Shown here: in pieces, positions 4,821 through 58,158 of the stretch
How positions within the stretch are numbered: position 1 is the first letter of the stretch
How the letters are laid out: each line of letters begins with the position of its first letter
Source of the DNA: Orobanche coerulescens
Lineage: Eukaryota; Streptophyta; Magnoliopsida; Lamiales; Orobanchaceae
Length of the DNA: 64,000 bases
Assembly (NCBI GenBank): GCA_033398695.1
Contig: CM065815.1
Location: forward strand, 146,303,001 to 146,367,000
Direction of reading: 5' to 3'
Made by a program: the position numbers and the translations under genes
The notes under the pieces: generated by a model
What the model saw: only the letters and a program-made list of their open reading frames with translations
Database searches by the model: none
Told to the model about the DNA's origin: nothing

Positions 4821-5894
4821 TGTTGGAGCAAGATTGGTCGGTATCGCCATATGGTGATAGAGTTATAAAATTCTTTCGCATTGCAGAAGCGATTTAAAAA
4901 TAAAGGTGCAGAAATTAAATCGACACAGGATTTATAGAGGTTCGGCCAAACGTGCCAACATCCTCTCTTCAGTATCTTTTTTATAGGCTAAAGATAAACC
5001 TCTGCACCTCTCTTCTATCGGTGGAGGGATAACCGTTACAAACTCGTCTTCTATCGGTCCGAGTAAACCGTTCAATCACTTATCTTTTTGTCGGTCCAAG
5101 TTAAACCATTTTTTTTTTATTGGACAAGGAATCAACCAATATAGCTTTCTATGGGTACTAGATAGACCTCACGTAGATATCGATTGCGATTCTAACAATG
5201 CCGGATCCTTGATCCTAATAACATCGAATCCAATCGTATCCTTTCTTTTTCCTCTCGTGTATGAGTTTTCGTGTATCACACTCAAACTTTTGACAATATA
5301 AGCACAATTACAACAACAATAGAATGTATAATAATATATGATCAATGTATCGATTGTTTGAAGTTGTTGTTTTTTCAATACCATAGGAAATGGTATTTAT
5401 AGGCTCCAAATCCTCAACTAGCCGTTAGCCCTTTTTGCCTTCTTTACGTAGGTTATAGCTTCTCCTTTACGTACTTTAGCTTCCTTACGTACATTAACAT
5501 CAATATGTTACGTACGTTATGCTCCATGCAAATCAGTCCAGTAGCTTCTGTCTTCTGTATTACGTATGTTACCACATCACCAACTACGTACGTTAACTTA
5601 GTCAAATTATCCGTTGCATGCTGACCTATGCCATGACGTCATCTCCAACGTTCATCTTGTTTGAATTCATAAACACTTGGTTATGTACGTTAATCTCTAT
5701 TTGTTACGTACGTTAAGTTCAGAATATTACGTACGTTAAGCACAGTATATAGCGTACGTTATTCATGATATTTCCAGCTTTTTGTGTCTTCGACTTCTTC
5801 GTTGTTTTGCTTCGCTTCTTTGTTGTTTTTCTTTGTTTAACAACGTAATCATCAAAACTCTATTAATGAATATTTGGAATAAAATATTCCAACA
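4821..5894 (-). repeat. LTR of copia-2 (1074 bp), minus strand
   Basis: Read on the minus strand, the LTR starts TGTTGGAATA at 5894 and ends with the complement of TGTTGGAGCA at 4821, giving TGTTGGA inverted ends. A polypurine tract (complement of ATCTCCCCTTTTTT, 5895 on) lies immediately upstream, so this is the 3' LTR of a minus-strand copia element. The minus-strand TATA box is the complement of GGTATTTATAGG (about 5392-5403), with the palindrome array on its upstream side. No second LTR is visible. Confidence 0.75.
5444..5762 (-). promoter_or_regulatory. Palindrome array upstream of the copia-2 TATA box
   Basis: Ten copies of an ACGTACGT-type palindrome have centres at 5449.5, 5472.5, 5490.5, 5513.5, 5565.5, 5589.5, 5686.5, 5709.5, 5732.5 and 5755.5. 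Steps are 23, 18, 23, (52), 24, (97), 23, 23, 23. The array starts about 45 bp upstream of TATA in the minus-strand sense. The geometry matches the gypsy LTR arrays at 20117 and 23742. Confidence 0.8.
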
Positions 5895-7859: not shown

Positions 7860-8573
7860 TTCATTAAAAATTATAAATAAAAGAATAAAAAAAATTAAAA
7901 AATAAAAAAATATAAAAAAACAACAAAAGAAGATCTAATATTGAAACTACCATTTCATTCATAAACTGCAGAGTTAATTACATAAAAACCATTGATGTCA
8001 TCATCAACAACCAACCTTGAGAAACCCATACATACCCATCAAAAAAACATAACAGACTACGTAGATGATAATGCATTTCTAATAATTTGGCGCCTACGCC
8101 AAATTCTAAACAAATTTCGAGTAATATTATTAAAAAAAAGATCGATAAAGTACATGGCAAGAAAATTAAATTATATATTGAATATCGATAGTATTTTCCA
8201 AATAGAACATTACAATCAAGTTTTAAAAAATCATTTAAAAATTGCAACTCTTGTATCATTCTTCAAAGAAAAATTATCGATCAACTCTTCATAATCAAGA
8301 GCTCCTCTTTGCGAATGAACCTACTTATTAATTCTTTTTTTTTCTCATGCTTTTCACAACCTAAATCACATTTTCTAATTTTGGGCAGCATAACGATTAT
8401 TTAAAAAACAGGTCAAATAACAAAGGGAAACAAATTATACTTGGGCTTTGATTCTGGATCGGGGCCCTAAAAGGGTTGAGGCCCTATGCGGCTGAACATA
8501 CCGCATAGGCCCAGAACCGGGGCTGGATGATAAACCAACCAAAAGAACCTAAAGAACCATTACCCATGAAGAC
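7860..8573. other. Intergenic, no gene seen
   Basis: AT-rich. A possible hairpin at about 8481-8512 pairs GGCCCTATGCGG with CCGCATAGGCC. It lies just beyond the 3' end of the small minus-strand gene at 8574, so a role in transcript ends is possible but unproven. Confidence 0.5.
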
Positions 8574-9739: not shown

Positions 9740-10660
9740 GTATTATTTTTTGATAATGTGAGTTTTCCATGTCATGCTAAGAATATATAACCTAGAAAAA
9801 GGAATATTAGAAGCCCATTCCAATTAAATGACCAATATCAAGTTAAAACAAAATTTGAAAATAAAAAACAACTACAATAACTAATAAACTATAAACTAAT
9901 CAAAAAAGTTAGATTTACAAAAATATAAACAAATTCACGCGAAACACTTAGAGAGCAAGTTTGTGCGTAGCACGGGTTCTGACTTACTCGTGAACAAAAA
10001 TTTCTAGATTCATCCTTAATTATACCCCTATATATTTAATTAATTTTTAATAAGCCATATATAACGAGCTATTGAGGTAAATATAATCAGTTAACTGTTT
10101 CTTAACTGTAAGTTAAATATTATTATTAATTTTCTTTTGGAACTTTTTGGATTTTTCACATCGAATGTAATAACTCTTTTTTTTTTAAAAAAAAAAAGAG
10201 AAATTAGATAGCAAGAGAAAAACTTTCTAAATTTGGTAACCTTTATTTTAGGTCAACCTATGTTCCAATTTCTTCCAACACAATTTATTTTCCTCCACAA
10301 AATTTCACAACTTTCTTTTTTCTCCTATTTTTCACAACCTATGTTTTTGTTTCCTGATCCAAACAATTCATACACAAAATTCCCATTGTTTTCAATCTGT
10401 TTTTCAATGCATTGCTGCCAAATCTTTTCCTTCCTGTCATGCTCATGCCATTCTTGTTCTTTGTAACATGATCATGTTGTAGATTTTATGCCAATTAAAA
10501 ATATATGTGTATGTATATGTTGGCGTCCTGTAATAATATTCAAATTTCTACATTTTCAATACCATTCAAAAAAAAAATTCCATATCCATTTCATCAAGTT
10601 TCATCATTTTCTCTCTCATTGGATGAGGATCTCAAGAGAGAAAAAAGGTGATCAACATTA
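9740..10660. other. Intergenic region upstream of the DUF868 gene
   Basis: AT-rich with poly-T/poly-A near 10171-10198. An ATATATGTGTATGTATATG stretch at about 10500-10519 and a CT/AG-rich leader (10605-10646) precede the ATG at 10661, so the promoter of the DUF868 gene probably lies here. Nothing else is recognised. Confidence 0.5.
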
Positions 10661-11590
10661 ATGGCTTATCGTGTGACCACGAGGTCTCAATCCATATCCT
10701 CTTCCCAACAATCGATCGTCCAAAAACTAAGCAACGACCCAGTCACGAACAAAACGGCCCAAACCACGGCCACGTGCGTTTATCAAGCCCATATCGCGGG
10801 ATTTTGGCGAAATGTGACTATATTATGGAGCAAGAATCTCATGAACTACTCTTTAAGCATATCGGTCGATAGTGCCGAGCATGATATTGTCTACACGTCC
10901 AAAATCGACCTAAAACCTTGGCATTTTTGGGCCAAGAAAGGTTACAAGACGTTGGAGGTGGACGGGAGCCAATTGGAGGCCTATTGGGATTTAAGATCGG
11001 CAAAATTTTCGGGCGGCCCCGAGCCTTGCTCCGATTACTACGTCGCCTTAGTGTCGGAAGAAGAAGTCGTCTTGTTATTAGGGGACTTGAAAAAAAAGGC
11101 CTACAAGAGGACGAAAGCAAGGCCTGCATTGGTTGATGCCGTGATGTTTTACAAGAAGGAAAATGTCTTCGGCAAGAAATCTTTCTCCACGAGGGCGAAA
11201 TTCGATCAGAGGAAACGAGAGCACGATATCGTGGTCGAGAGCTCGACTTCGGGCCCTAGGGAGCCCGAAATGTGGATTAGCATTGACGGGATCGTGTTGA
11301 TACACATCAAGAATTTGCAATGGAAATTTAGGGGCAATCAAACGGTGTTGGTCAATAAGCAGCCGGTACAAGTGTTTTGGGACGTGCATGCATGGCTATT
11401 TTGCGCACCGGGCTCAAATCATGGGCTCTTCATATTTAAGTCGGGCGAGAATGAAGGTGATAGCGATGAAGATAATTGCAGTCGAGGGGAAGATAGCGAA
11501 TGTAGTGGTAATAGTAAGTATTATTCGACGCAGAGCTATTCGAGATATGCTGATTTCTGTCTTTTTCTTTATGCGTGGAAGATTGAGTGA
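10661..11590 (+). CDS. DUF868 family protein (309 aa), intact
   Basis: An intronless plant gene of the DUF868 family (PF05910), whose biochemical role is unknown. Family landmarks in order: a Ser/Gln-rich N-terminus (residues 1-30), CVYQAHIAGFWRNVTILW (about 45-62), DLKPWHFWAKKGYKTLEVDG, AYWDLRSAKFSGGPEP.SDYYVALV, LLLGDLKKKAYKRT, FGKKSFSTRAKF, MWISIDG, LQWKFRGNQTVLV (strongly conserved in the family), VFWDVHAWLF and the terminal FCLFLYAWKIE. Length and both ends agree with full-length members. A Ser/Glu/Asp-rich linker precedes the last motif. ATG 10661 is preferred because it lies just before the conserved start and follows an A-rich leader. It converges with the minus-strand ELF3-like gene. 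No frame damage is seen, so it is probably functional. Confidence 0.92.
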   Translation: MAYRVTTRSQSISSSQQSIVQKLSNDPVTNKTAQTTATCVYQAHIAGFWRNVTILWSKNLMNYSLSISVDSAEHDIVYTSKIDLKPWHFWAKKGYKTLEVDGSQLEAYWDLRSAKFSGGPEPCSDYYVALVSEEEVVLLLGDLKKKAYKRTKARPALVDAVMFYKKENVFGKKSFSTRAKFDQRKREHDIVVESSTSGPREPEMWISIDGIVLIHIKNLQWKFRGNQTVLVNKQPVQVFWDVHAWLFCAPGSNHGLFIFKSGENEGDSDEDNCSRGEDSECSGNSKYYSTQSYSRYADFCLFLYAWKIE

Positions 11591-19933: not shown

Positions 19934-20116
19934 CTCGATCGAACAAGAGAACAAGTGAGATAGTGTTGATAATGTGAATGAGACTCACCAAGATGAAGCT
20001 TGATGATGAAAATCGACCCAGATCGCCCAAGAAGACCAGACCCGACAGATAGAGACGGAAGAAGTCAAAATGACTTCCAAAAAATCATCCTGCAGATTAC
20101 ATAAATGGCCAGACTC

Positions 20117-20312
20117 TTACGTATGTAATCGACCAAGGTTAACGTACATTAATGCATTAACGTACGTAAGGAGATACATGCTACGTACGTAAGGGTGTTC
20201 CAGAGACTTCTGCCTGATTTTCTACATATGATAACGGCTGTAACACACTGGCCTTTACGGTCGTAATAAACTGGCCTCTATAGCCATAACATACTGCAGG
20301 TTACGTCCGTAA
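20117..20312 (-). promoter_or_regulatory. Palindrome array upstream of TATA, gag-only element
   Basis: Centres at 20122.5, 20145.5, 20163.5, 20186.5, then 20237.5, 20260.5, 20283.5 and 20306.5. Steps are 23, 18, 23, (51), 23, 23, 23. The first four have TACGTA-type cores. The next units are of the ACGGCTGT, ACGGTCGT and ATAGCCAT type, so one array mixes two core types without changing register. Confidence 0.85.
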
Positions 20313-20816
20313 CCTACATTCTGGCAGCAGATCCCAATCTGTTGTCCGATCAGCCCCGAACGACTTCAAAATGCGACGACTTGGAAAAATATGATGTAAC
20401 ACTTATTGAGGATTCTCAACAACGAACGAAAGTGCTAAACAAACACGCGATTCCGACAATCTAAAAGTAGGTAAAAGCAAGCACGTAAGCGAGTACCCAA
20501 AACTTTGGGAATTACAAAACAGCCCAAATATTCTAAAAATCACGATACGAGATCGAATAACCATTCCGAAGTTCTCAACATGACCAAAAATGATAAATGA
20601 ACTTGTAGGAACGACAATATAACAGTTCCGAGCAAGATTCATAGGAATCGGACCTAAATGCGGAAAAGTCGCAATAATATGCCGATTAACCCCAAACAAT
20701 ATCAAAACTCGCTCGAATGACAAAAAGTGCAGAACAAAACATGTCCAAAATGTGTCCATGAATACAAGAAAGTTGCTAGAATCGAAAAATACAGGAATGA
20801 AAATACGAATATTACA

Positions 20817-21824: not shown

Positions 21825-22155
21825 TGTAACACCCCCGATATATTCAGGAATATTACAGCGCCGTAAATCCTTTAAGTTAGAATTTACAAGGATGATGAAA
21901 TGAAAAGACAATAACAAATACCAACAAACAATGGCAGCGGAAATAAAATACAACACGAGTCTGAAAACAGTACTGAATGACAAACGTCAAACGGTGAACA
22001 TTAATACATGACCAAATCCAACATCCCAAACAACAACGTACTCAAGTACTTTATTAAAACAACACAAACATACGACAAAATAATGGGGACGTAACATCAC
22101 TCTGCACCCTCGTCGTTGTGCAGCTCTAGTGGTTGTTTTCCCGCTCTCCTGGATC

Positions 22156-23521
22156 CTGAACATAAACAAATGTTCACCCCCGAAGGGGTTAGCACGACGA
22201 TGCTAGTACAAGTACGATAATTATACAACAATTTATTCAACAATCCCTGAATAATAACTTTAATAATATCAACAATAATCACGTCAAGTCTATCCAACGA
22301 GAAACAGTAACAATGTACAGCATATGATACCAATCTCAACATACTCGTGGTATTCCAATGATCCAGCGCACACAGCTATAGATTCAATGATGATCCAGTC
22401 GGACCAATGCATGGTGGAAATACATATCCAACGATTCAGCGCACACAACTATAGATTCCCATGATGATCCCATCGGACCAACGCATGGTGGACAAACAAT
22501 CACAACACATATGCACAATACAACAACAATATAACCGACATCAATACGAATAAATATAATTAAGGTACTTGCCTTAAATTGACGACAAGGATAATATTTG
22601 ACGGATGTTAATACACTCGAAGGTCGTCCCTTCGATCAATCACATTGCAAATCTCGGGCCTAAAACAAAAGAAATATTATAGAGTTCATCTTACGTCATA
22701 TAACTAACGTACGAACATCTATCATCCTAAACTATGGCCGAAAGTTGCCGACACTTTGGATCCTGTCCGATTCTCTTCATAAAGGACGTTACATACCCAA
22801 CGTAACGTACGTTAAGTGTGTGCCTTAAAGTATGTATGCTCCTATTCCTAACGTATGCTAAGCTTGTATTTGACAAAGTTCTCTGATTAGACGACTGTCT
22901 CACCTGATGCTATAACGTACGTAATGCATGACACTTAACGTACGTTATACTTATGAACACATTTTGGTACAATGATGGTGTCTACGATTTCAAAGATATT
23001 CATCAAACCAATATAATTCTATACTTCAATCTTCATTCGTGGTTCGATCATTCATACAACTCGTATCAAAGGTATGATCATATGAATACTAACAAATTCT
23101 CGAAGGAAGATGAAACAACCGTGTTCTAGGTTCAATTCGATTATCCTCAACATAATAAATCCATTCTAACCAAGAATATATCAAAGTTATCAATTCAAAA
23201 AACTCTTACAAAAATACGAAACGTTCTTGGTGAAACTCCTAGAATTCATCTTCTTTGAACACTTTGATTCTAGGTGATGATATTAACATGGCATTATATA
23301 CAACTCGACCAAAACGTACCACAATCTCAGAAACTACGTCCTAGGGTTCAACATGCCAAGGTTCATTTCACAATTCTCTTAACAACGAAGAACACTCCAA
23401 GTATAATCAAACCAATCTTTCTAAGACATGATATTCGATTACTACGACATCCTTGAAACGTAATAATCTCATTAACATACTCAAGAAACCGAATTCAAGG
23501 TTGTGTTTAGTATCAACATAC
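22156..23521 (-). other. Candidate LTR intron, Tekay-1 3' LTR
   Basis: Donor CATAAAAG|GTATGTTG (intron starts 23521), about 200 bp downstream of TATA. TGCTAAC, a CCCC-TTCG-GGGG hairpin (plus coordinates 22177-22188) and the acceptor TTATGTTCAG|GATCC (ends 22156) follow. The second exon would be 331 nt to the LTR end. The 5' LTR has the same sites at 29584-30956. Confidence 0.5.
22700..22950 (-). promoter_or_regulatory. Second palindrome array, inside the Tekay-1 LTR intron
   Basis: Further ACGTACGT-type palindromes, best seen in the other LTR at 30211-30380: centres 30218.5, 30241.5, 30264.5 and 30287.5 (23, 23, 23), then 30351.5 and 30374.5 (23). Same pitch as the upstream array, but downstream of TATA and donor. 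Confidence 0.7.
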
Positions 23522-23741
23522 CTTTTATGAAGAATAACGATGAAAACGATCGGTAGAACTCAACTCCGTAGGCTTGAACACCACTCCGAGATGTCTACGA
23601 TCTTCTAAACCAGGTATAGAGGCTATATAAGGATTATGTGTGGGTGAGAAAACTCTCTGGACTATCAGAAATCAGATAAGGAATGAAAAGAAATGAGTTG
23701 AAATGAAATGGGGTGCTGCCATATTTATAAAACTCAGACCT

Positions 23742-24130
23742 TTACGTACGTTATCCTCAAAGAATTACGTACGTTATGTCCTTAACGTACGCTATCTAAA
23801 ATATTTAGCATGTGTTATCGTCCGATAGTAGCTACTGCCTCATCGCTGACCTTCTTAACGTACGTTAACCCTTACCCATTACGTACGTAATAAGCTCTGT
23901 TTAGCGTGCGCTATCTTAGTCCCTTAGTGTACGCTAAACCTCGTTGACTTGCTTTTTCAAAAAGCTGTCTGGGCCATGCAGGGAATCTTATCCATGTCCC
24001 CGTCCCAAGATGGACCATGTGCCGACCAACCTTATCTGCCTGACTGTATGTTACGTACGCTTTGCTTCGTCCATAGCGTATGCTATCCTCAGTCCATAAC
24101 GTACGTTAAGCTCATCAGCTAGCGTACATT
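23742..24130 (-). promoter_or_regulatory. Palindrome array upstream of TATA, Tekay-1 3' LTR
   Basis: Twelve palindromes: 23747.5, 23770.5, 23788.5, 23811 (23, 18, 22.5); 23861.5, 23884.5, 23907.5, 23930.5 (23, 23, 23); 24056.5, 24079.5, 24102.5, 24125.5 (23, 23, 23). The sets are separated by 50.5 and 126 bp. Cores vary among ACGTACGT, GCGTGCGC and mixtures. Confidence 0.88.
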
Positions 24131-24405
24131 ATGACGTAGCTACATGCATGAATTTGCAAATTCTTCCTAATATGATCATGACTGATTGGAATACGAATAT
24201 GGGAAAAATCATACTTCAATTATAGATACCACAAGGTCGAATATTACAAGGTTCAAATACAGATGAAAATACTCAACAATTATCAGGATATTACATACTC
24301 TCCCTCTAAAAAGGAGTTTCATCCTGAAACTTAAGACGAAAATAGTTCTGGGTATCTAGACATCATACTGTTCTCTGTCTCCCAAGTGGCTTCTTCAACT
24401 TCGTG

Positions 24406-29253: not shown

Positions 29254-29583
29254 TATTCTGTAACACCCCCGATATATTCAGGAATATTACAGTGCTGTAA
29301 ATCCTTTACGTAAGAATTTACAAGGCTGAGGAAATGAAAAGACAATAACAAATACCAACAAACAACGGCAATAAAATACAACACGAGTCTGAAAACAGTA
29401 CTGAATGACAAACGTCAAATGGTGAACATTAATACATGACCAAATCCAACATCCTAAATGACAACATACTCGAGTACTTTATTAAAACAACACAAACATA
29501 TGACAAAATAATCCGGCCGTAACATCACACTGCAACCTCGTCATCGTGCAGCTCTAGTGGTTGTTTTCCCGCTCTCCTGGATC

Positions 29584-30956
29584 CTGAACATAAACAAATG
29601 TTCACCCCCAAAGGGGTTAGCACAACGATGTTAGTACAAGTACGATAATTATAAAACAATGATTTATTCAACAATCCCTAAATAATAACGTCGATAATAT
29701 CAACAATAATCACGACAAGTCTCTCCAACGAGAAACAGTAACAATGTACAGCATATCATCTCAATCTCAACATACTCGTGGTATTCCAACGATCCAGCGC
29801 ACACAACTATAGATTCCCATAATGATCCCGTCGGACCAACGCACGGTGGAAATACCTGTCCAATGATCCAGCGCACATAACTATAGATTCCCATGATGAT
29901 CCCGTCGGGCCAACGCATGGTGGACAAACAATCACAACACATATGCACAATACAACAATAATAGAACCAACATCAATACGAATAAATATAATTAAGGTAC
30001 TTGCCTTAAATTAACGACATGGATAATACTTCGACGGATGTCAATACACTCGAAGGTCGTCCCTTCGATCAATCACGTTGCAAAGCTCGGACCTTAAACA
30101 AAAGAAATAATATAGAGTTCATCTTACGCCATATAACTAACGTACAAACATCTAACATCCTAAACTATGGCCGAAAGTTGCCGACACTTCGAATCCTGTC
30201 CGATTCTCTTCATAACGGACGTTACATACCTAACGTAACGTACGCTAAGTCTGTGCCTTAATGTACGTAAGCTCCTATGCCTAACGTATGCTAATCTTGT
30301 ACTTGACAAAGTTCTCTGATCAGACGAATGTCTCACCTGATGCTATAACGCACGTAATGCATGACACTTAACGTACATTATACTTACGAACACATTTTGG
30401 TACAATGTTGGTGTCTACGATTTCAAATATATTCATCAAACCAATATAATTCTATACTTCAATCTTCATTCGTGGTTCGATCATTCATACAACTCATATC
30501 AAAGGTATGATCATATGAATACTAACAAATTCTCGATGAAAGATGAAACAACCGTGTTCTAGGTTCAATTTCAATTATCCTCAACATAATCAATCCATTC
30601 TAACCAAGAATATATCAAAGTTTATCAATTCAAACATCTCTTACGAAAATACGAAACGTTCTTGGTGAAACTCCTAGAATTCATCTTCTTTGAACACTTT
30701 GATTCTAGGTGATGATATTAACATGGCATTGTATACAACTCGACCAAAACGTACCACAATCTCAGAAACTATGTCCTAGGGTTCAACATGCCAAGGTTCA
30801 TTTCACAATTCTCTTAACAACGAAGAACACCCCAAGTATAATCAAACCAATCTTTATAAGACATGATATTTGATTACTACGACATCCTTGAAATGTAATA
30901 ATCTCATTAACATACTCAAGAAACCGAATTCAAGGTTGTGTTTAGTATCAACATAC
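29584..30956 (-). other. Candidate LTR intron, Tekay-1 5' LTR
   Basis: Same donor (CGTAAAAG|GTATGTTG) and acceptor (TTATGTTCAG|GATCC) as the other LTR, with both sites kept despite divergence nearby. The hairpin loop differs (CCCC-TTT-GGGG). Confidence 0.5.
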
Positions 30957-31169
30957 CTTTTACGAAGAATAACGATGAAAACGATCGGTAGAACTCAACT
31001 ACGTAGGCTTGAACACCACTCTGAGATGTCTACGATCTTCTAAACCAGGTAGAGAGGCTATATAAGGATTATGTGTGGGTGAGAAAGCTCTCTGGACTCT
31101 CAGAAATCGGATAAGGAATGAAAAGAAACGAGTTGAAATGAAATAGGGTGCTGCCATATTTATAAAACT

Positions 31170-31575
31170 CAGACCTTTACGTACGTTGTCCTCAAAGAAT
31201 TACGTACGTTTTGTCCTTAACGTACGCTATCTGAAATATTTAGCGTGCGTTATCATCCGACAGTAGCTAATTCCTCATTTATGACCTTTTTAACATACGT
31301 TAACCCTTACCCTTTACGTACGTAATAAGCTCTGTTTAGCGTATGCTATCTTAGTCCCTTAGCGTACACTAAACCTCGTTGACTTGCTTTTTCAAAAAAC
31401 TGTCCGGGCCATGCGGGAAATCTTATCCTTGTCCCCGTCCCAAGATGGCCCATGTGCCGACCAACCTTATCTGCCTGACTGTATGTTACGTACGCTATGC
31501 TTCGTCCATAGCGTACGCTGTCCTCAGTCCACAACGTACGTTAAGCTCATCAGATAGCGTACGTTGTGACGTCGC
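31170..31575 (-). promoter_or_regulatory. Palindrome array upstream of TATA, Tekay-1 5' LTR
   Basis: The same sets as at 23742-24130, with independent point changes within cores (for example TTAGCGTGCGTTA here where the other LTR has TTAGCATGTGTTA). Confidence 0.85.
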
Positions 31576-31730
31576 TGCATACATGAATTTGCAAAATCTT
31601 CCTAATATGATCATGACTGATTGGAATACGAATACGGGAAAAATCATACTTTGATTATAGATACCACAAGATCGAATATTACAAGGTTCAAATACAGATG
31701 AAAATACTCAACAATTATCTGGATATTACA

Positions 31731-35782: not shown

Positions 35783-36059
35783 TGTAATATCCTGAATTTC
35801 TACTATGGTTGTTTAATTTTATTTTATCTGAGTTATATTGTACAGTGTGAGATCTGTACAATATGGATAAAAATTGAAGGACTAAGACAGTTGTATTAGT
35901 ATAATTGTCGTAGTTGGTCGACAATTGCATTTGAGGATATTGTGTATCGCATGAGAATATTATTGGAATGAATATATGTATTCAGCATGTCATGTATACG
36001 TATCCAATATGTCTAGACAACGGACAGGAACAATTGGAATTGGCTAAGTATAGCCTGAT

Positions 36060-36661
36060 TAACGTACGCTAGTATGAGGACTTATCACATGCTAATGTGC
36101 AGAGCTTACGTACGCTAAGAAGGACCGTTAACATACGTAAGATCATATTGGACAAGATCCAGGTTGTGGCCGACAAGTAGGTCCCGAACTGAGTCATCGG
36201 CATTTTGCGCACGCTAATGCATAAGGTTAACGCACGCTAGTGCAGAACAGATCAGAGGGAATCTACATGTGGACCCGGTTAGTTTCGGCGCATGTCCCGA
36301 CAAGGTCAACGGATGTTTGCTATGGAAGACTAGCGCACGCTAAGCGTAGGGCTTAACGCACACTAATACCAGATTAGTCAAAGGGAATCCCGACTTTGTT
36401 GTTTGCTTTCGGCGTATGGACCCAGGCATCTTCAGAGTAGGTGCAGATTATCGAGTCAATGGGGATTAGCACGTGCTATTGTTGGAGAATTACGCACGCT
36501 AATGAGCATATTACTGTAACAAGTCAACGTCGATATTACGTACGCTACGGCATGGATTTTGCGTACAAATTATTGTGCGAACTGAGGCAGTAGCCACTGG
36601 ACCACGATTGCACACGCTATGGCAGGTAACACATGCTATTTAGTGAGAGTAGCGCACGCTT
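36060..36661 (+). promoter_or_regulatory. Palindrome array upstream of TATA, plus-strand LTR
   Basis: Centres 36065.5, 36088.5, 36111.5, 36134.5 (23, 23, 23); 36210.5, 36233.5 (23); 36336.5, 36359.5 (23); 36472.5, 36495.5, a degenerate 36518, 36541.5, 36564.5 (23 each); 36613.5, 36632.5, 36655.5 (19, 23). TATA follows 17 bp later. Cores are mostly ACGTACGC, GCGCACGC and ACGCACGC. Confidence 0.85.
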
Positions 36662-36903
36662 GTAATGTGCAGTATATATATGTGCAGTTGGGTATTATTA
36701 TTCATTTCGGCCATTTCTTCCCTTCATCAGATAGAGAGAGTTCTTGGGCGAGGTTTTGAGGTCCCAAACACTTGAGTGTTTGTAGAGATGATCACCTTTA
36801 ACAACATTAAGCTTGAGATCATGGATTAGAGCTTTGTTCTTAAAGTTGTCAATGATTCTTGGAGGGAGCTCGATTGTTCTTCATAATAATTCGTCAATAC
36901 AAG

Positions 36904-44485: not shown

Positions 44486-44725
44486 CAATTAGCGTGCGCT
44501 AATCATTAAGGTTAGCGTGCGCTATCACGGCACCCAACAAAACTCCTGACCAAAAATACACTGTTAGCGTGCGCTAACCCCAAGTGTTAGCGTGCGCTAA
44601 CGAGAACTTGCACCCCAAGAGCTCTGGATCGCTCTGAACTACCAGGTAGCGTGCGCTATTCTCCCCTTAGCGTGCTACCAACGTACTCTCGCGCGTGTTA
44701 GCCGTAAAGCGTAGCGTGCGCTAAC
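44486..44725 (-). promoter_or_regulatory. GCGTGCGC palindrome array within the LARD interior
   Basis: AGCGTGCGCT-type palindromes: 44495.5, 44518.5, (52) 44570.5, 44593.5, (59) 44652.5, 44673.5, 44694.5, 44717.5. Steps are 23, 52, 23, 59, 21, 21, 23. A minus-strand TATA (complement of GGTATTTATACTGG, 44469-44482) and the donor GAATCTAG|GTATTTTT (44296) follow at LTR-like distances. This is a sixth promoter of the same design. Confidence 0.8.
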
Positions 44726-48110: not shown

Positions 48111-48594
48111 TTCGGTCGGCAGTGATCGGCCAATAACTGAAAAATAAGCGGGTGAGCTAAAACGACCATAACTCTCTCGTCCGGACTCTGATTGACTCAC
48201 CGTTTGAACCATTAGAAAGCTAACTCGATGTTCTATAATATTGCAAAGATTCAGAATCTTTGGAGTTTCCAAGAATTAATGGTGACTTTACAAAGTCGAA
48301 CTCCCACGTGAAAAAGTCGATTAAGGACACGGAACTCAACAAAACGACACCGAAACGAACTCGGATGACAAAAAGTGCAGAATTAATCATTCTCGGAATG
48401 ACGAAACGGTCATGATAGATTTGTCAAAACGAACTTCCTCCCAAAAAAGAAAATTACCGAAATTCGAAATTGCGGATATTACAAATACAAATGAAGAAAA
48501 ACAAGAATGACTGAAAGGACTGGGGCCCCCTACTAGTATCACTGGGACTCCTCGCCGTCAACGTTCTCTTCCCGTGCTTTTGCCTTGCCATGAC

Positions 48595-49702
48595 CTGAAA
48601 ACAATATCCCCCAACAGGGTCACTTATACAGAACAACAATCCTCAAGGGTTGAATATACACAATCATGACATATCTCAATTATGAAATATCCTTAGTTAT
48701 GAATTTAAGCTGAAGAGGAGCATCATAGTACGCCCATTATGTTCTGTGCAAGTGTACAAGACGAGTGCCCGGACATACCCGTCCTTGTACCTAATTAGTC
48801 TCACGGAGGTAAACGTTACCGTTTGCACAGTCCAATGTATCGGTGAACCCAACACATGACTATCGTGTGCCCGACTAAAACTTCCACACATTCGCACCCG
48901 GCCACGCAATATGAACCCAGAAGGTCACACGATCAAAAGTGACCATGATGATTATTAATGAATAACAACCCGACAAGGGTCAAGAATGACTCACCGAGAT
49001 GAAATAATAGTGAAATGAATGATAGCTCTTTGAAATGATTGGAACCGTCGTTCCCCATGACTGAAATGATTATTTTGATAATTACACATCTCAACATGAT
49101 TAGTACACTATGAATGATTATGATTTATGAATGAACAACAACGAAAGGAATGAGTATCCTTTTAACCGAGTAAGAATTAACTTACTCAACACTGGTGAAA
49201 AATGTCCTTCCACGAACAAACGTCCTAAATGAGATGTCGGTCGCTTGAGCAGCCTTGAATAACATAATTACCAACAATCCGTTCAACATACGAATCAAAC
49301 ACGATTATAACTAAATCAAAACGTCGATACGACTAAACCAAGTTCATTGGGGCATTATATCAAACACGTTGTAATCAATCTTCGATTGTTTACAACCAAT
49401 CCTTAACTATACCAATATCAAATCCTCAAGGAGTTTTCCAAACAACAAAACATCTTCAATACAATCAATAATCCAATATGAATATCCAAATTCGTGACTA
49501 CAACAACAACTAATCGAAAACCCCCAAATCCAACTCAATATTCAAAGTGTTCTTGGATAAACCTTCAATAATCCAATGAATATTCATACACACTCATAAT
49601 CATACGTATATCTCTTCATACAACATGATTATAATGTCCAAAACATCATATCTCAGCATAAAATCGAAATCCAAGATCCAAACAATTGTTGAAGAATATT
49701 AC
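48595..49702 (-). other. Candidate LTR intron, Tekay-2 3' LTR
   Basis: Donor TTCAAGG|GTAATATTC (intron starts 49702), about 190 bp after TATA. AAGTGAC, a CCC...GGG hairpin and the acceptor ATTGTTTTCAG|GTCATGG (ends 48595) follow. The matching sites in the 5' LTR are at 56325-57422. After removal of the LARD, the second exon would be about 356 nt. Confidence 0.5.
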
Positions 49703-49908
49703 CCTTGAAGATCCAAACACTTTGATCCGATGAACACACGTTAGATCGACTATCCAAGCTTCACAAACGAATGAAGATGATGAAAACCGAACACCCAAGT
49801 GATTGATGATGAAAAATCTCTCCCTCAAGATCTCTCTCTTGGAACAAGGTGAAGAAATGATGGAAATGAGCTCAAAGTCCCGTCCAAGTCCTTTAAATAC
49901 TGCCATGG

Positions 49909-50368
49909 TTACGGCCGTAGCTCGGCCTACTTACGGCCGTAACATCCCAAGTCAACGGCCTTACGGCCGTAACCAGCCACCTCATATGGGCGTAACTCAC
50001 CCTCGTCCAAACACCTGCCGACAGTCATACGACCGTACCCGCACATGCCTTACGGGCGTAACTCGACCGATACGGCCGTACCCGGCTAAACTTACGGGTG
50101 TATGAAGCCTTTGTCGAAACTGCCTGGGCACCTTGCCTGCATCGTACGGCCGTAAAGCCGGTTATGGCCGTACCAGCCTCATCTTACGGCCGTTTTCCGC
50201 AACACTTACGGCCGTAAGTCCTATTCGTCCGAACTGTCCTGAAAACAACGAACGCATGTTACGGCCATATCCTACAATCCTTACGGCCGTAACTCACCTT
50301 CGTCCAAAACCACCCTGAGCCAACGAATGCATGTTACGGCCGTAATGCCTGACTAGTTACAGCCGTAA
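49909..50368 (-). promoter_or_regulatory. ACGGCCGT palindrome array, Tekay-2 3' LTR
   Basis: Sixteen TTACGGCCGTAA-type palindromes: 49914.5, 49936.5, 49966.5, 49989.5, 50032.5, 50055.5, 50075.5, 50097.5, 50149.5, 50167.5, 50189.5, 50211.5, 50264.5, 50286.5, 50339.5 and 50362.5. Common steps are 18-23 and 52-53. The array begins 8 bp from the TATA segment. Confidence 0.88.
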
Positions 50369-50753
50369 GTCACTGCTGGAAGTGACAAAAATCCGACAAC
50401 TCCATCTACTCGTTACAAACGGTGAATGATCTGATGTACAATACTTGTATGATTATAATTAAGTCCAATAACACGTGATAGATGATACTTCCAACACAAG
50501 ACTATATTCACGATGATTATGATAATACTCTCGTCTCGACTCTCAATTGGAGATGAATGACGATCGGCAACTGATACACGGTTACAAATGCCTACGATGC
50601 ATACAAATGAATGAATCATGAATGATGAGTGATTATTAATGAGTGAAAAATTACTGAGTGACCAATACTGATTGATAATTACTCAATGATAATGAATGAA
50701 TTACAACCGGGTATTACATACTCCCCCCTTAAAAGAGTTTCGTCCTCGAAACT

Positions 50754-55968: not shown

Positions 55969-58158
55969 TGTAACACCCCAAACTAGGCGGCTATTACAGT
56001 GCCGTGGAACCCCAACTGGGACCCACCAGGCGAATGAAAATTAATGAATTAAATAATATAATTGTAGTATCGAACCACATTATATTACCAAATACTCCGA
56101 TGAGGAGCTTAAGTACAATACACCAGGACAATACAGAATACTAGTATATTTTATATGAAGATAAAATATACCACCCTGAATAAATAAACATCCCAAACGG
56201 AATTTGCAGCGGAAATACAAATGAAGAAAAACAAGAATGACTGAAAGGAATGGGGCTCCCTACTAGTATCACTGGGACTCCTCGCCATCAACGTTCTCTT
56301 CTCGTGCTTTTGCCTTGCCATGACCTGAAAATAATATCCCCCAACGGGGTCAGTTACACAGAACAACAATTCTCAAGGGTTGAATATACACAATTATGAT
56401 ATATCTCAATTATGAAATATCCTTAGTTATGAATTTAAGCTGAAGAGGAGCATCATAGTACACCCGTAATGTTCTGTGCAAGTGTACATGATGAGTGCCC
56501 GGACACACCCGTCCTTGTACCTAATTAGTCTGACGGAGGTAAACGTTACCGTGTGCACAGTCCAATGTATCGGTGAACCCAACACATGACTATCGTGTGC
56601 CCGACTAAAAATTCCACACATCCGCACCCGGCCACGCAATATGAACCCAGAAGGTCACACGATCAAAAGTGACCATGATGATTATTAATGAATAACAACC
56701 CGACAAGGGTCAAGAATGACTCACCGAGATGAAATATTAGTGAAATGAATGATAGCTCTTTGAAATGATTGGAACCGTCATTCCCCGTGAATGAAATGAT
56801 TATTTTGATAATTACACGTCTCAACATGATTAGTACAATGTGAATGATTATGATTTATGAATGAACAACAATGAAAAGAATGAGTATCCTTTTAACCGAG
56901 TAAGAATTAACTTACTCAACACCGGTGAAAAATGTCCTTCCACGAAGAAACGTCCTAAATGGGATGTCGGTCGCTCGAACAACCTTGAATAACACAATTA
57001 CCAACAATCCGTTCAACATACGAATCAAACACGATTATAACTAACTCAAAACGTCGATACGACTAAACTAAGTTCATTGGGGCATTATATCAAACACGTT
57101 GTAACCAATCTTCGATTCTTTACAACCAATCCTTAACTATACCAATATCAAATCCTAAAGGAGTGTTCCAAACAACAAAACATCTTCAATACACTCAATA
57201 ATCCAATATGAATATCCAAATTCGTGACTACAACGACAACTAATCGAAAAACCCCAAATCCAACTCAATATTCAAAGTGTTCTTGGATAAACCTTCAATA
57301 ATCCAATGAATATTCATACACACTCATAATCATACGTATATCTCTTCATACAACATGATTATAACGTCCAAAACATCATATCTCAACACAAAATCGAAAT
57401 CCAAGATGTTGAAGAATATTACCCTTAAAGATCCAAACACTTTGATCCGATGAACACGCGTTAGATCGACTATCCAAGCTTCACAAAAGAATGAAGATGA
57501 TGAAAACCGAACACCCAAGTGATTGATGATGAAGAATCTCTCCCTCAAGCTCCCTCTCTCGGAACAAGGTGAAGAAATGATGGAAGTGAGCTCAAAGTCC
57601 CGTCCAAGTCCTTTAAATACTGCCATGGTTACGGCCGTAACTCGGCCTACTTACGGCCGTAACATCCCAAGTCAACGGCCTTACGACCGTAACCAGCCAC
57701 CTCATACGGGCGTAACTCACCCTCGTCCAAACTCCTGCCGACACCCATACTGCCGTATCCGCACATGCCTTACGGGCGTAACTCGACCGATACGGCCATA
57801 CCCGGCCAGACTTACGGGCGTATGAAGCCTTCGTCAAAACTGCCTGGGCACCTTGCCTGCATCGTACGGCCGTAAAGCTGGTTACGGCTGTACCAGCCTC
57901 ATCTTACGGCCGTATGCCACAACACTTACGGCCGTAAGTCCTATTCGTCCGAACTATCCTAAAAACAACGAACGCATGTTACGTCCATATCCTACAATCC
58001 TTACGGTCGTAAATCACCTTCGTCCAAAACCACCCTGAGCCAACGAATGCATGTTATGGCCGTATGCCTGACTAGTTACGACCGTAACTCGCTGCTGGAA
58101 GTGACAAAAATCCGACAACTCCGTCTACTCGTTACAAACGGTGAATGATTATGATAAT
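55969..58158 (-). repeat. Tekay-2 5' LTR, truncated by copia insertion
   Basis: Matches the reassembled left LTR from TGTAACACCCC. Near 58150 it jumps from the equivalent of about 50432 to about 50515 (a deletion between GATGAT/GATTAT repeats), then the copia LTR begins at 58159. Candidate intron 56325-57422. Confidence 0.9.
57630..58090 (-). promoter_or_regulatory. ACGGCCGT palindrome array, Tekay-2 5' LTR
   Basis: The same array as 49909-50368 with scattered substitutions (for example ACGACCGT and ACGTCCAT in place of ACGGCCGT and ACGGCCAT). Confidence 0.85.

Follow-up and report, generated by a model that had tools for sequence, protein, structure and literature searches.

Do the short CpG palindromes that recur near TATA boxes in several LTRs of a 64,000-nucleotide stretch of the Orobanche coerulescens genome (the window) form an arrangement that is kept across retrotransposon families, and if so, what keeps it? 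The palindrome, M1, is a 14-bp dyad with a CpG core (pattern TTARCGNNCGYTAA, TTARCGYRCGYTAA-like), and reversed TTARCGNNCGYTAA, which has the same base composition, was used as the control pattern. A second dyad, M2, has the sequence CCAGWAGCTWCTGG. The arrays of the window are listed below, with intervals between M1 centres in bp; "Tekay-1" is used purely as a label, taken over from a preliminary description of this DNA.

23741-24132, minus strand: M1 array of Tekay-1 LTR A, in the direction of transcription 23, 23, 23 / 126 / 23, 23, 23 / 50 / 23, 18, 23
23825-23838, minus strand: M2 in the 50-bp gap of Tekay-1 LTR A, three mismatches to CCAGWAGCTWCTGG, 20 and 30 bp from M1 centres
23722-23729, minus strand: TATAAATA, 11 bp beyond the edge of the last dyad of Tekay-1 LTR A
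31176-31567, minus strand: the same M1 array in Tekay-1 LTR B
22779-22948, minus strand: further M1 array within LTR A of Tekay-1, downstream of TATA by about 800 bp; twin at 30212-30381
36059-36662, plus strand: M1 array of the plus-strand LTR, ending 72 / 19 / 23; TATATA starts 10 bp after the last dyad
36587-36600: M2 of the plus-strand LTR
5443-5762, minus strand: M1 array of a copia-type LTR, 23, 23, 23 / 97 / 24 / 52 / 23, 18, 23; TATA 41 bp on
5538-5551: M2 of the copia-type LTR
44489-44724, minus strand: M1 array of the LARD region (the 44-kb array), 59 / 23 / 52 / 23; TATA 10 bp on
20116-20313, minus strand: degenerate array of a gag-only element; just two dyads pass the weight matrix and the others were placed by position

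For Tekay-1, the LARD region and the plus-strand LTR, the preliminary description had the spacings right. Self-BLAST placed the Tekay-1 LTRs at 21825-24295 and 29259-31730 on the minus strand, and the LARD-region array showed 94-100% identity among the genome copies listed (40). The array claimed for the gag-only element at 20 kb is present but weak. Arrays are not present in every LTR, as each Tekay-2 LTR (48483-50430 and 56213-58149) contains a single isolated M1 site.

The exact TTARCGNNCGYTAA occurred 351,317 times in the one genome examined (3,646,015,169 bp, 1,279 contigs), compared with 731 occurrences of the reversed control. At one mismatch or fewer, 23 sites were found in the window, compared with a mean of 0.4 and a maximum of 3 in 50 block-wise dinucleotide shuffles. 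Forty sites were present at two mismatches (6.0 in shuffles), and the counts were near background at three (100 vs 62) and four mismatches (422 vs 412). A random sample of 20 loci of 10 kb (L009-L028; 200 kb at random positions on contigs C1-C15) gave 46 sites at one mismatch or fewer (control 3), 95 at two (control 40) and a background number at three (232 vs 254). When TTAR was permuted with the CpG kept, the 12 resulting palindromes differed in their counts in the random loci (TTARCG 46, RTTACG 39, ATTRCG 14, the other nine 0-6), and we regard the three highest as one motif read in overlapping forms. A weight matrix, which was built from the clustered sites of the window and of the same random loci that it later scanned, gave 118 M1 sites in the random 200 kb. 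The same 200 kb contained 13 arrays with at least four dyads, which extrapolates, very roughly, to 240,000 such arrays genome-wide. Exact 23-bp pairs of M1 were found in just 2 stretches among 257 Gb of prokaryotic contigs and in none among viral contigs. Given that the Tekay-2 LTRs carry no array and that 7 of the 20 random loci had no M1 site at two or fewer mismatches, not every LTR needs the grid.

The pitch was also distinct from background. With sites at up to four mismatches, 41 M1 pairs in the window lay exactly 23 bp apart, compared with a mean of 2.5 and a maximum of 6 in the shuffles, and at three mismatches the random 200 kb contained 34 such pairs, compared with a maximum of 5 pairs for the control pattern, whatever the distance. 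Among the 97 intervals of 150 bp or less between adjacent sites found with the weight matrix in the random 200 kb, 59 were 21-24 bp and 34 exactly 23 bp, with minor groups at 18-19 bp (3), 51-54 bp (7) and 64-65 bp (7). The 14 clusters in the random loci had 58 intervals of 21-24 bp (mean 8.2, maximum 18 in 2000 random placements). The main value is thus 23 bp as first claimed, with 21, 22 and 24 bp also occurring as variants, and the predicted peak at 23 bp with side peaks at 18 and 50-52 bp before TATA is present in the random sample and in the chosen loci.

The order of intervals also recurs. We compared 22 arrays, oriented by the nearest TATA or else by site order, with TekB and L015b being LTR twins of other entries. 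Seven of the 22 (both Tekay-1 LTRs, L017, L007, the window copia LTR, L020 and L025, the last two with one dyad missed) have an ending of 50-53 / 23 / 18 / 23 (type A), which spans copia and gypsy elements. Five (L001, L013, both L015 arrays and the 44-kb array) end in about 64 / 23 / 51 / 23 (type B), with blocks of 21-24 bp pitch farther upstream. L006, L022 and L028 match type B in part, by just the final 52-54 / 23 (approximate); the plus-strand LTR has a variant order and the 20-kb array is degenerate. Neither common ending was found in 5 of the 22 arrays (L018, L021, L039, L041 and L010). In a later set of 15 loci, the ending is 50-51 / 24 / 18 / 23 in L071 and L072 and nearly the same in L073 and L074. 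Copia and gypsy may have come to have the ending 51 / 23 / 18 / 23 in common either by exchange or by convergence.

The arrays had been described as ending at TATA, and in 16 of the 22 oriented arrays the last dyad is indeed followed, at 8-12 bp, by a TATA-like box, compared with a background of 4.2% (the closest such box on either flank of randomly taken stretches). The statement does not extend to the remaining six, which are the copia LTRs (41 bp), L010 (51), L025 (36), the 20-kb array (32) and L007 (none by pattern). In the 15 later loci, for which the sequence was limited to that near the array, TATA was found at 10-11 bp in five, at 31-37 bp in four and not in six. The arrays are accordingly repeated sites upstream of TATA within LTRs, as in tandem enhancers of U3.

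The carriers belong to more than one superfamily. In total 42 arrays from the window, the random loci and loci chosen by pattern or similarity (with overlaps between L001-L003, L004-L005 and L007-L008) fell into 14 clusters without mutual BLAST similarity of 80 bp or more, but LTR flanks still tie some clusters together: L001, L015, L018, L021 and the 44-kb array are 74-81% identical downstream, and short flank matches (38-194 bp), some at the LTR start, connect L022, L025, L007, L015, L017 and Tekay-1. The claim of gypsy-type carriers is borne out by Tekay-1, a minus-strand element with RT, integrase and protease between its LTRs, and by L017. About 1 kb from the L017 array, and on its strand, lies an integrase piece of 59 residues that shares 90% identity with the integrase of the window's Tekay-2. 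Gypsy elements are not the only carriers, however, since the array at 5443-5762 lies in a copia family. This 5.4-kb LTR family has a copia-type gag (Retrotran_gag_2, E 7e-17 in L041) on the same strand beside the LTR. Such a gag was present in 10 of the 14 loci examined (L020, L030, L031, L032, L033, L036, L037, L038, L040 and L041) and as a fragment in L035, and absent from L029, L034 and L039. The RT of L020 was rejected as proof of copia, as the array-bearing LTR starts at 8531 and interrupts it; the gag downstream of this LTR was retained as evidence. The data support that one palindrome and one pitch are common to families of two superfamilies whose arrays are not alignable.

Three pairs of copia LTRs are about 3.1 kb apart, which suggests gag-only elements; in L031, L040 and C10:51890277-51894153 the distance between LTR starts is about 3.1 kb and the elements seemingly contain gag alone. 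The Tekay-2 LTRs are without an array, yet the 90% identical integrase piece in L017 adjoins an array-bearing LTR, and promoter types may have been swapped between such close relatives. A GATGACGTCATGG stretch resembling a bZIP site was observed between dyad groups, in the 98-bp gap of many copies of the copia LTR (L029-L040).

Part of the gaps of about 51 and 65 bp hold the second dyad. M2 was first noticed by eye in gaps and then counted. At two or fewer mismatches, all seven M2 sites in the random loci were no more than 45 bp from an M1 centre (2.8% of the sequence is this close; control 0 sites), as were 2 of 4 in the window. At three mismatches the numbers were 9/21 in the random loci (control 0/17) and 4/8 in the window (control 1/2). 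For 11 of the 13 gaps of 59-65 bp, the centre of the best M2 match lay 30-33 bp away from the upstream M1, and M2 beat shuffles in 7 of 13 at p<0.05, where p values are optimistic because M2 was defined on overlapping data. The corresponding number in gaps of 48-55 bp was 6 of 15; here the distances were 20-23 and 30-32 bp, and the copia LTR had them in mirror image (21/31). No clear M2 was seen in the type B gaps of about 51 bp that adjoin TATA.

The explanation that we favour, with a probability of roughly 75%, is that the arrays are putative promoter-proximal platforms for a cooperative dimeric factor, common to Ty1-copia and Ty3-gypsy LTRs. Each 14-bp M1 dyad would be the site of a dimeric sequence-specific factor, with several dimers at the fixed 23-bp pitch; some of the arrays would in addition accommodate a second factor, on M2 at set distances within the gaps. 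The platform, commonly at a fixed distance from TATA, would make contact with the TATA complex. The factor may be encoded by the host, or made by one element and used by others, and it would either activate the LTR or prevent its silencing; owing to the CpG core, binding would be open to methylation. It is from the arrangement of the sequence that we infer protein binding, the dimer, cooperativity and activation. If copia and gypsy elements depend on such a factor, source copies would be selected for dyads and pitch, and the spacers would be free, or under pressure, to change.

Divergence was examined in an alignment of 12 copia LTR loci, with figures between insertions calculated from nine of them (L031, L034 and L039 were dropped as twins). 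Between insertions, the 9-bp spacers differed at 52.7% of positions (1115/2116), compared with 12.7% for the dyads and 6.3% for M2; elsewhere the values were 10.1% in upstream U3, 10.1% downstream, 13.9% in the TATA region and 20.3% in the long gaps, and the internal sequence near the LTR differed by about 11-18%. Between the two LTRs of one insertion (three pairs) all regions differed by 5.5-10.7%, with 5.7% in spacers and 7.2% in dyads. Given this like divergence within LTR pairs and the spacer excess between insertions, spacers were replaced between source lineages, and outside the array most divergence is post-insertion damage. The variable zone forms a halo: divergence is 0.45-0.62 in the spacers, and outside the dyads it is 0.55 at a distance of 1 bp and declines to about 0.1 by 12 bp. 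No correlation was seen between the divergence of spacers (0.10-0.64) and that of the LTR (0.07-0.13; r 0.07). Spacers nevertheless hold their length: the array had at least 100 spacer substitutions and 1 indel, compared with 186 and 10 outside it.

In the copia LTR pairs CpG transitions amounted to 15.3% in dyads and 16.7% elsewhere, and in the Tekay-1 LTR pair to 18.6%, compared with 2-3% at other sites, which we read as probable CpG methylation after insertion. Since M1 CpGs decay like other CpGs after insertion, the conservation of dyads points to selection on source elements rather than to a low mutation rate, and the data support that dyads and pitch, and not spacers, are kept by this selection. 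The same transitions (15-19%) could suggest that the arrays are nucleation sites of host silencing, with CpG-dense dyads attracting methylation. We consider this improbable, given that the elements would then profit from loss of the dyads, which are instead kept between source lineages, and that CpG decay is the same outside the dyads.

In other families, seven presumed LTR pairs differed by 1.3-5.6% in spacers, 1.1-12.5% in dyads and 1.7-12.6% in the rest. Between insertions the values for spacers, dyads and rest were 44, 13 and 33% (L071/L073), 36, 12 and 32% (L072/L074), 43, 9 and 21% (L068/L070), 46, 11 and 25% (L069/L070) and 20, 4 and 9% (L066/L067), so the dyad constraint recurs outside copia. 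The spacer excess over other U3 parts was 1.1-2.2 fold in these families, compared with about 5-fold in copia. No spacer excess was found in L075/L077 (2, 4 and 11%) or L076/L078 (4.5, 4.6 and 22%), and in the young 44-kb family the spacers differed by 1.1% over 21 copies, below its gaps (7%); all three sets are recent, and the 44-kb copies had been selected for their likeness to the array. A spacer divergence of 53% can hardly come from weak constraint alone while other parts of the LTR are little diverged beyond post-insertion damage. The change near dyads would therefore be selected for or arise from a process of the replication cycle, and a mutation process that acts constantly near dyads is at odds with the young 44-kb family. 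The claim that dyads and pitch are kept while spacers look unrelated between families stood; only 5 of 1375 spacer pairs between families agree at 7 or more of 9 bases.

The comparison of spacers also bears on a 23-bp minisatellite, which would have arisen by head-to-tail duplication of one monomer and whose repeat length would be all that the pitch reflects. The spacers of L018 are near-identical, spacers of the same array are slightly more alike than those of different families (mean 3.10 vs 2.44 of 9), and new dyads could well originate by such duplication. However, among 106 spacer pairs within arrays, just 3 agree at no fewer than 7 of the 9 bases, and these 3 are all from L018, so neither recent duplication of one monomer nor likeness of whole monomers was found. 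Copia spacers match by position (32/180) and rarely across positions (2/720) or inverted (2/900), the intervals of 18, 51 and 65 bp recur across families, and dyads are conserved while spacers diverge. As a complete explanation, duplication of the full monomer is largely refuted by these numbers, and we regard a minisatellite origin as unlikely. The positional matches likewise led us to reject that units moved from one position of an array to another or that spacers were inverted; the copia spacers change in place.

Element RNA also contains U3, at its 3' end. The dyads might therefore function at the level of RNA or cDNA, in dimer linkage, packaging or template switching, and not as DNA sites, with short palindromes pairing between molecules, and the variability is indeed limited to the dyad flanks. 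The common fixed distance to TATA and the absence of any sign of unit shuffling or inversion speak against such a role, and loopless 14-bp palindromes would be poor hairpins; of the alternatives weighed here we give this one the least credence.

The platform of dimers that we prefer has its closest analogue in the VANC target arrays. According to two reports, VANC targets are motif arrays of VANDAL (Mutator-like) transposons in Arabidopsis, the motifs are family-specific (YAGTATTAY for VANC21), the protein is element-encoded and the repeats evolve together (Hosaka 2017, PMC5735166; Sasaki 2023, PMC10398659). Both systems have dense short motifs in noncoding DNA of plant mobile elements, both have fast-diverging target regions, and CG methylation is at stake. 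The VANC motif is private and belongs to DNA transposons, whereas here one palindrome is common to copia and gypsy LTRs; VANC repeats evolve together, whereas here a 23-bp pitch is tied to TATA and the spacers diverge but the dyads do not. More tentatively, much of the copia and gypsy load might run on one trans-acting factor through the common dyad grid, perhaps VANC-like in preventing silencing but public, with the 9-bp spacers being driven to change from lineage to lineage at a rate above that of other LTR parts; a promoter of invariant dyads amid changing spacers would then escape homology-guided silencing or a repressor that reads the flanks. Escape from siRNA as a full account was weakened by the LTR parts upstream and downstream of the array, which stay alike, and by identical runs within the array region, which had a median of 28 and reached 56 bp. 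On the other side, identical 24-base windows of the copia LTR made up just 2.3% in the array region, compared with 8.2% upstream and 9.1% downstream.

Tnt1, Tto1 and similar elements have tandem regulatory boxes in U3, which are direct repeats private to one family or subfamily. Like the present arrays they are repeated sites upstream of TATA in an LTR, for activators in their case and putatively so here; unlike them, they are not known to have a dyad, pitch or second motif common to superfamilies. Spm has subterminal 12-bp binding motifs for TnpA, which activates and demethylates the transposon. These too are arrays of short sites, with protein binding being predicted in our case, but they lie at the ends of a DNA transposon of a single family, their protein is element-encoded and they are not known to form a 23-bp dyad grid. 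We know of no factor motif that matches the dyad: SPL (GTAC core), NAC, MYB, BZR1 (CGTGYG), FHY3 and E2F fail on centre or flanks. A literature search of titles and abstracts, with most subscription papers outside its reach, gave no description of the M1 grid, which leaves its absence from print unproven. Literal motif strings had rare matches, one string each, under titles on other subjects. The strings "palindrom" and "promoter" are absent from the main text of an Orobanche repeat study (PMC4381496).

If one factor serves unrelated superfamilies, its discovery or removal would test single-regulator control of the expansion of an entire plant genome. Frozen dyads next to fast-changing spacers in the same LTR copies preserve, as a natural archive, how selection has acted on retrotransposon promoters, and the contrast between them offers a way to test escape from small-RNA silencing.

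A CpG observed/expected ratio of about 1.0 is unusual among large plant genomes. Such a ratio was observed in the random loci L009-L028 and in the window, despite the strong CpG decay in LTR pairs. The window also contains a DUF868 gene (10652-11590), which points to a host probably within Orobanchaceae, being 87% identical to that of Castilleja foliolosa, with further top matches in Lamiales.
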